Source: Methanothrix sp.
Lineage (GTDB): Archaea; Halobacteriota; Methanosarcinia; Methanotrichales; Methanotrichaceae
Assembly: GCF_030055635.1 (NCBI RefSeq)
Contig: NZ_JASFYM010000003.1
Coordinates: 62,001-126,000, forward strand
Length of the DNA: 64,000 nt
Reading direction: 5' to 3'
Shown: piece by piece, positions 16,913-58,255 of the stretch
Position numbering within the stretch: the first letter of the stretch is position 1
How the letters are laid out: the number at the start of each line of letters is the position of its first letter
Notes under the pieces: generated by a model
Database searches by the model: none
What the model saw: only the letters and a program-made list of their open reading frames with translations
Told to the model about the DNA's origin: nothing
Program-made: the position numbers and the translations under genes

Positions 16913-17069
16913 TGCCTCTCACCATAATCAAACGCTACCGCATATTATATTAACTTTACATCCACAGGAGCTACGCATCACAGAATGGAGCGCTGTGTTT
17001 TCTGTAAGCTGCACAGCTCAGGCACACAGGAGTCGGGCCCTCTCTTCGGGCATGTAACCATATCATAAG
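16913..17069. other. Gene-free stretch between the Lrp-domain gene and repeat copy A
   Basis: Together with the repeat at 17070-17182 and the lonB promoter this forms a 480 bp gap. The part next to 16912 (CGCATATTATATTAACTTT, about 16938-16957) is AT-rich and probably holds the promoter of the topoisomerase VI operon. Nothing else was recognised. Confidence 0.45.
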
Positions 17070-17182
17070 TTGTGTACGCAGATCATTGAACCCAATAGCA
17101 TGCGGCCCTCGCAGGTTTGTGATCTGTTGTGCCAGTAAATGCCGATTCCTGAAATTCCGTTCGGTGATTCAAGTACACGACC
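17070..17182 (-). repeat. Repeat family 2 (about 110 bp, pairing ends), copy A
   Basis: Read on the minus strand it begins GTGTACTTGAATCACCGAA and ends GGGTTCAATGATCTGCGTACACA. Blocks shared with copies B (36515-36626) and C (44603-44716) include TCAGGAATCGGC, CAACAGATCACAAA and CTGCGAGG. The two ends are imperfect inverted copies of each other over about 19-24 bases, giving a MITE-like or foldback structure. Confidence 0.8.
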
Positions 17183-17344
17183 GCATCATGAAATCAACAT
17201 CAATCAACCTGTACAGACTCATGAAATATCTTTCCCTGGCTATCGATTCTGGCAAATCATCCAGCGAATCAGGCCCACAGCATGGCACTCCACAGAATTC
17301 TGACCGCGCAGTGCTCCGCGGCATGCCAGCGTGAGGCAAGCATC

Positions 17345-23330: not shown

Positions 23331-23420
23331 TCATCTCCGGAGACTCTTACAGGAAATATAAGAATCTGTCGGGATCGCCTGTGCGGATCGCATGTGTACA
23401 ATCTCCAGAGGATCATCTGG

Positions 23421-23470
23421 ATTGATAGCAGCAGGGCGCAAGCTCCGTCCTTCAGGCCGGAGAGGAGACC
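23421..23470 (-). repeat. Hairpin repeat family 1, copy 3
   Basis: The minus strand reads GTCTCCTCTCCGGCCTGAAGG, then ACGGAG, then CTTGCGCCCTGCTGCTATC. The stem is CTCCG (23443-23447) with CGGAG (23458-23462). It is the closest match to copy 1 and sits between the divergent topA and rps8e genes, just before the rps8e TATA box. Confidence 0.75.
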
Positions 23471-23482
23471 ACGGCCGTAAAG

Positions 23483-36240: not shown

Positions 36241-36478
36241 GCACAATCACCCCGATGAATTCTGCATTCGGCACATGTTTGCAGCACTGTTTGCATTATG
36301 GTTTCCTCCATACATCCATTGCTTTAATGTATGTTTTTGTGCTTTGATGCACTTCCATATTAAAACCCTTCCCTTGAACGAGGTCGCTGGCTCATAAAAA
36401 TCCAGAGGTGGCAGCACCCAGGATGTGGTTGTGAGCTCGAATCACTGAGGTCAGCATGAAATCGATGTCTATCAGCAC
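36241..36478. promoter_or_regulatory. Promoter side of the symporter operon
   Basis: On the minus strand GTTTTAATATGG (about 36355-36366) can act as TATA box, giving a leader of roughly 100 bases. CATACAT (36309-36315) and ATGTATG (36327-36333) form an inverted repeat with an 11-base spacer inside that leader or at its start. It is a possible operator or RNA hairpin. Confidence 0.4.
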
Positions 36479-36626
36479 GGTATCACAGAGCCTGCATGGT
36501 CACATGCTGTTGGGTCGTGTGCCTGAATCGCTGGATCGAATTTCAGGAATCAGCACCATCTAGCACAGCAGATCACAAATCATGCGATGTCACATGCGGC
36601 TGGCTTCAATGATCTGAGCACACAAT
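36479..36626 (+). repeat. Repeat family 2, copy B with an attached partial copy
   Basis: The full copy (36515-36626) starts GTGTGCCTGAATCGCTGG and ends CTTCAATGATCTGAGCACACA. A fragment of the 3' half (36479-36514: TCACAGAGCCTGCATGGTCAC, then ATGCTGTTGGG) stands directly before it. The terminal hexamers GTGTGC and GCACAC are complementary, although copy A has GTGTAC and GTACAC. Confidence 0.78.
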
Positions 36627-36740
36627 CTGCTGTTGATCCCATCGATAAAGCAGGCCACTTTCAGCTCAAGATCTGCCGTTCAAACCGATGTGCTGGTCAT
36701 ATGGGTGCATGGATCTCTGGTGCAGCCATCCTCAAAAAGG
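36627..36740. other. Remaining gap before trpB2
   Basis: Nothing recognised between repeat copy B and the trpB2 TATA box. Confidence 0.4.
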
Positions 36741-44540: not shown

Positions 44541-44716
44541 GACCTGAATAGCTGAATAGGTTCCGGAATCAGTATGCATCGACATAATGCTATGAATACA
44601 GGTCCTGTACTTGAATCACTTAATGGAAACTCAGGGGTCGGCGTTCTCAGACACAGCAGATAACAAATCCTGCGAGGTCACATGCTGCTGGGTTCAATGA
44701 TCTTAGTACACGACTT
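44541..44716 (+). repeat. Repeat family 2, copy C with a preceding partial copy
   Basis: The full copy (44603-44716) starts CTGTACTTGAATCACTTAATGG and ends GGGTTCAATGATCTTAGTACACG. A 5'-half fragment (44541-44582: GACCTGAATAGCTGAATAGG, then TTCCGGAATCAG) precedes it. A lone end fragment AAAGTACACGACC occurs at about 44852-44864. Confidence 0.78.
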
Positions 44717-48906: not shown

Positions 48907-48977
48907 AGTGCTCCACGCAGCGCTGCCCACCATAAACTCGCAGGTAATACAGCGAGGTCATGGGCGTGGATCTGATG

Positions 48978-49030
48978 GAGGGCAGCAGGGCGCAGCCTGC
49001 GGTCTCCAGGCCAATGGGGAGGTCACACAG
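48978..49030 (-). repeat. Hairpin repeat family 1, copy 5
   Basis: The minus strand reads TGTGTGACCTCCCCATTGG, then CCTGGAGACCGCAGG, then CTGCGCCCTGCTGCC. The tail and the GTGACCTCC head match copy 1, while the hairpin itself is weakened. It lies between two convergent gene ends. Confidence 0.6.
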
Positions 49031-52856: not shown

Positions 52857-53172
52857 TTTCGTCAGCAGCTTTTGCAATCGATTCGAATGCAGCATGCAAT
52901 ATTACAGAGGCTCCTCCAGGCGAATTAGCGGAATATTGAGAATGGCGAAAGGGGAAGCTTCAACGTTACCGAAAATACGGCTCAATCAAGCTTTCCGATG
53001 ATTCGCGGAGATGAGCCTTACAGAAAATGCGGATCTCAGGGGTGGCCCGGCTGGCCGAGTGCGGGCTCGAGCAAGTGGATTATTCTGCTGAAATCGACAA
53101 CCACAGGGAGATATTCCACAAACCCGGAGGGGCTGAACGCTGCGGATTTCATGATGCAGAGTAAACGACCGG
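52857..53172. other. Gene-free stretch between ferredoxin and nrdD
   Basis: 316 bp with no gene, tRNA or repeat copy recognised. The composition is mixed, and it contains a GC-rich patch near 53040-53075 (GGTGGCCCGGCTGGCCGAGTG) that does not fold as a tRNA. Confidence 0.4.
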
Positions 53173-57965: not shown

Positions 57966-58103
57966 GCTCGCTAATCCTCTATTTCAGAACCCTAATCTTT
58001 ATTATGTCCACAGGTCGATTCATATAATTTTCTATCGCAGGCGGTGGCTGTGGAGTCCCGTAAGTCTTGACCATATGCGCATCATCCTGGGTGATAAACA
58101 GTG

Positions 58104-58255
58104 TCGTGCACTCGATTCAATGAATGACTCTGCTGGAATCGGGTCTTGTACTCGAATAGCGAAGAGGCTGTCAGGAACCAGCGCCCACCGGTACAATGCT
58201 GCATGAACCCCACAAGGTCGCATCCCTTCTGATCCAGTGATGCGAGTACACAGCC
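58104..58255 (+). repeat. Repeat family 2, diverged copy D
   Basis: The core (58145-58255) starts CTTGTACTCGAATAGCGAAG and ends CCAGTGATGCGAGTACACAG. CAGGAACCAGC and CACAAGGTCGCAT align with the other copies. An extra end-like piece GTCGTGCACTCGATTCAATGA stands at 58104-58124. The ends TGTACTCG and CGAGTACA are fully complementary. Confidence 0.55.

Follow-up and report, generated by a model that had tools for sequence, protein, structure and literature searches.

A dispersed 115-bp repeat of Methanothrix sp. is probably a MITE with the ends of an IS1-family insertion sequence

The window analyzed here, a stretch of 64,000 nucleotides from Methanothrix sp., contains a dispersed repeat with complementary ends, which we consider, with a probability of roughly 0.9 and on the basis of sequence comparison, to be a MITE mobilized in trans by a transposase of the IS1 family. 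The original prediction had described four copies, A to D, and had read their ends as a sign of selection for a fold, as in a structured RNA or a foldback mobile element. The mobile-element half of that proposal is borne out by a unit of 115 bp with inverted ends, 8-bp duplications, a nested copy, presence/absence differences between relatives, and ends of IS1-family type. The element ends most likely represent the sites gripped by a transposase.

Copy A (17068–17182, plus strand) is a 115-bp member of subfamily F1, delimited by a genome search and by alignment with 19 other F1 copies from the same genome. Its left terminal inverted repeat, AGTTGTGTACGCAGATCATTGAA (17068–17090, plus strand), deviates from the end pattern of the family at two positions, and the right one, GGTCGTGTACTTGAATCACCGAA (17160–17182, minus strand), at one. 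The previously assigned boundaries, 17070–17182, were correct to within two bases; the true start is at 17068, and the two bases were missed because the terminal GG of the family reads AG in copy A. The decayed left target-site duplication, ATATCATA (17060–17067), agrees with the right one, GCATCATG (17183–17190), at only five of eight positions, a point against the IS1 reading. Copy A lacks a transposase gene and is located in the intergenic gap upstream of lonB; the sole ORF of at least 80 amino acids overlapping it (82 amino acids, 17086–17334) extends into the flank.

Three further copies, inferred to be copies B, C and D of the original prediction, are found on the minus strand of the window. 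Copy B (36513–36627) is an F1 element bounded by a perfect 8-bp duplication, TGCTGTTG, at 36505–36512 and 36628–36635. It is apparently nested, interrupting an older F1-like copy, part of which is preserved at 36427–36512 (minus strand), as suggested by an end match with two mismatches and by a resemblance to the F1 interior that was judged by eye. Copy C (44601–44715), likewise of subfamily F1, has the duplication TGAATACA/TGGATACA, identical at seven of eight positions. Copy D (58142–58255) is a decayed F3 element adjoining a further end at 58102–58124 on the plus strand. The complementarity noted for the ends is present, namely GTGTAC/GTACAC, GTGTGC/GCACAC and TGTACTCG/CGAGTACA. A single decayed end of the MITE type, with five mismatches to the pattern and followed by F2-like sequence, occurs at 53148–53170 (minus strand).

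A search of the genome to which the window belongs (1.76 Mb, 33 contigs, 99.75% complete) returned 17 near-full-length copies with E values below 1e-14, besides several partial ones, confirming that the repeat is real and multi-copy. When the copies were aligned in corrected orientation, ends and interior were common to them, while the flanks were unrelated. The terminal inverted repeats of the family comprise 23 bp, GGTCGTGTAC...TGAA. A degenerate pattern of the 23-base end matched the genome 102 times with up to three mismatches; the reversed pattern, used as control, did not match it at all. Pairing of these ends yielded at least 41 non-overlapping elements with both ends, 31 of them 112–116 bp long. 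Three subfamilies that hardly differ in length can be told apart, F1 (including copies A, B and C), F2, and F3 (including copy D), with the two consensus ends equal at 17–19 of 23 positions, depending on the subfamily. The interiors of F1 and F3 are 66% alike over 65 bases, and the F2 interior has no recognizable relation to either. The copies avoid open reading frames: ORFs of at least 120 amino acids are overlapped by 9 of the 41 copies, as compared to 70% of random positions. In this genome, no two full-length F1 copies share more than 84% identity, an argument against a very recent burst. At G000:C5:34920–35155 (locus L127), MITEs from two subfamilies are adjacent, and TGATTCTC occurs before, between and after the second, as if the second element had inserted at the edge of the first.

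The 8-mers flanking the copies have a mean identity of 0.591, as compared to 0.278 (sd 0.026) when flanks were permuted between copies. The match is perfect in 8 of the 41 copies, including those at C9:32566, C5:42622 and C8:13351, and extends to seven of eight positions in five and to six of eight in another five; thus, 18 of 41 copies match at 6–8 positions, versus 0.81 expected. Target-site duplications, proposed earlier as a check on mobility, are therefore present and are 8 bp long, other lengths giving no comparable signal among the copies of this genome. Similar 8-bp duplications were observed in three sister species. Duplications of this length fit the IS1 family, members of which duplicate 8–9 bp.

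Relatives differ in the occupancy of the region upstream of lonB, where no recognizable F1 copy is present in four of six genomes of the genus, and where another insertion, bounded by a perfect duplication of its own, AACTCAGT, is present in genome G004. Elsewhere, orthologous copies are shared by different species, with deletions and decay of the ends in the orthologues, and one intergenic region can carry a copy in two species. Decayed orthologous copies together with insertion differences indicate an old family in which insertion has continued.

The autonomous relative that the original prediction had suggested looking for was found in other genera. Matches confined to the ends led to a contig from another genus of the same family, on which the end overlaps the 3' end of a transposase gene. 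Relatives of this transposase, some of them distant, are encoded in 28 of the 61 genomes searched, and in other genera the same ends adjoin an IS1-type transposase at more than ten places. Complete elements of about 1.2 kb, with GGTCGTGT... ends on both sides, are present in genomes G009, G021 and G042. They apparently contain two ORFs that overlap in different frames, with a zinc-finger-like cysteine pattern in the first and a DDE domain in the second; some copies of the IS1-type element are broken and contain stops. The first ORF did not match any IS1 model of Pfam. The second scored 28.5 bits (G009) and 23.6 bits (G008, just below the cut-off) against the Pfam model DDE_Tnp_IS1 (PF03400, cut-off 24.1), but remained far below the cut-off of the NCBIfam IS1 model, indicating a distant IS1-type transposase. 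Right ends of the insertion sequences agree with the MITE consensus ends at up to 21 of 23 positions, whereas shuffled ends never exceeded 17. In the genome of the window itself, a decayed remnant at C1:110874–110981 comprises the last approximately 30 transposase codons beside an end matching at 21 of 23 positions.

A point against the IS1 reading is that the six genomes of the genus yielded no intact insertion sequence with such ends, so that the partner is deduced from neighboring genera and this one remnant; the absence does not amount to proof, since multi-copy insertion sequences can drop out of draft assemblies. A search of the window's genome for an autonomous element in the form of a wider-spaced pair of ends retrieved only a 538-bp segment (C8:43338–43875, locus L050), in which no recognizable transposase is translated; it may represent a pair of decayed copies or else a non-autonomous element of greater length. 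The likeness between MITE and insertion sequence is confined to the ends, the interiors sharing only 10-base matches (E = 0.41). A deletion derivative of an IS1-family element with an IS-derived interior is not supported, as the MITE interior is not recognizably derived from the insertion sequence, which also speaks against the IS1 reading. A further point against it is that the full IS copies inspected in G009 and G042 lack a clear 8-bp duplication; the flanks of an internally deleted copy in G050 match at six of eight positions, as judged by eye. An IS1-type ORF of G004 (contig C22, 40% identical) is not an evident partner, because neither matching ends nor inverted repeats were found nearby.

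According to the proposed mechanism, the two 23-bp ends would serve as binding and cleavage sites for a DDE transposase of the IS1 family. The enzyme would be supplied by a full-length insertion sequence, bind both MITE ends in trans, and join them to a target cut in a staggered fashion, giving rise to the 8-bp duplication. Such mobilization of MITEs in trans by the transposase of an insertion sequence is our inference from the shared ends. The ends would then owe their complementarity to the same transposase site being present in inverted orientation, rather than to selection for a fold of RNA or DNA. The copies in this genome are presumably now mostly immobile fossils, nothing more than a remnant of the transposase having been found. 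The occurrence throughout the genus of three subfamilies of about 115 bp, one with an unrelated interior, and the lack of an intact insertion sequence in the genomes searched could mean, although we regard this as unlikely, that length and interior are under selection, due to transpososome geometry or a role in the host, or that the elements are mobilized by transposases arriving from neighboring genera.

The notion that a former MITE family has been co-opted by the host and is kept for that use, for instance as intergenic sites of regulation or transcript processing, would accommodate the intergenic position of the copies, their near-constant length, and the orthologous copies, including the intergenic region occupied in two species. 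However, an intergenic bias is expected from selection against gene disruption, and the orthologues show the deletions and end decay described above. The TATA-like stretch near lonB, upstream of which copy A is located, is identical in all six genomes of the genus, and the element is missing from most of these genomes. Co-option therefore appears highly improbable.

Duplications of 8 bp are made by several IS families. Mobilization by a transposase of another family with similar ends and 8-bp duplications, such as IS1595 or ISL3, also has a precedent in an IS1595-linked archaeal MITE with 8-bp repeats (PMC3852290). Nevertheless, the ends adjoin an IS1-type transposase at more than ten places in other genera, and the remnant in the window's genome is of the same type, leaving this explanation slightly less credible than co-option.

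The least probable explanation, and one already largely refuted, is that of a structured non-coding or cis-regulatory RNA with a terminal stem preserved through compensatory selection, the reading of the original prediction. It draws on the folding of single copies, which is better than that of dinucleotide-shuffled sequences (z of –2.6 for copy A, mean of about –2 for each subfamily), and on a weak A-T/G-C association at position 9, the position taken as example at the time. The folding signal was lost when the right end was shuffled, and the interior alone had a z near 0. At position 9, nine copies of the genome have A-T, five G-C and six a mixed pair, an association which is not significant (p = 0.14 in this genome, 0.13 over all copies) and fits a marker of a sub-lineage. 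Changes were counted across the genus in 56 F1 copies, considering those 18 end positions at which the consensus is the same for both ends. Of these changes, 223 were one-sided and 9 compensated, versus an expectation of 7.8 compensated changes if the two ends changed independently (permutation p = 0.37); F2 and F3 had 3 and 5 compensated changes, versus 1.3 and 5.8 expected. The larger set of copies thus did not reveal covariation at the ends, and the supposed compensation reflects independent changes. Within each subfamily, 4–6 end positions are mismatched between the two consensus ends. The covariation score of 20 copies from this genome was equaled by 53 of 500 shuffles, RNAalifold predicted neither pairs nor a consensus structure, and Rfam contained no match to the element. 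Selection for a fold is accordingly not supported: the lack of covariation among more copies and the IS type of the ends are essentially the two circumstances named beforehand as speaking against it. A simple account would be that both ends are the same protein-binding site in inverted orientation, decaying independently after insertion.

Archaeal MITEs whose ends resemble those of insertion sequences are well known (PMC3852290, PMC10969869), and several of those compiled by Kamoun et al. (2013, PMC3852290) are from methanogens (Methanosarcina, Methanospirillum). Like the element described here, archaeal MITEs are short, multi-copy and devoid of ORFs, and resemble their partner insertion sequences in the ends only; the 18 MITEs tabulated in that study include none from Methanothrix and none tied to IS1, their partners belonging to other IS families. 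The partner shares with the IS1 family the IS1-type DDE domain (PF03400), 23-bp ends starting with GG, and the two overlapping ORFs in apparently different frames, but differs in its distant transposase, and the element studied here has no transposase at all. QMITE2 of Coxiella burnetii (PMC10969869) is comparable in its predicted fold of inverted ends, its terminal repeats of 23–29 bp and its direct repeats of 7–9 bp, but has a longer core of 113–145 bp and a bacterial host. The element is thus of an ordinary kind; for this particular family, no description was found in the literature searched, ISfinder lying outside that search. The same literature described no MITEs for Methanosaeta and nowhere mentioned ISMhu11. 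Among 84,980 species genomes, a set that may omit the records for the genome of the window, the exact end pattern occurred in six stretches, all from Methanothrix or "Euryarchaeota archaeon" MAGs. A phage origin was dismissed, the consensus matching none of 50,697 phage records.

A repeat that is easily mistaken for a structured RNA is hereby explained, and a MITE annotation is gained for genomes of Methanothrix, important acetate-using methanogens. The family is also a clean example of complementary ends that, by themselves, do not prove selection for a fold. As the partner is decayed in this genome and better preserved in sister genera, the family lends itself to studying what becomes of MITEs once their transposase is lost.

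Other repeats were observed in the window. Between 1385 and 5733, several pairs of direct repeats of 42–69 bp, 75–88% alike, have a constant spacing of about 2950–2980 bases, suggesting that a gene or operon was duplicated in tandem. Another dispersed repeat, GTGACCTCCTCTCCGGCCTGAAGACCGGAGC...GCAGGGCGC, some 55 bp long and unrelated to the MITE, is present at 3–57, 23418–23472 and 48974–49026, with copies 81–85% alike; similar pieces also occur near MITE copies on other contigs.
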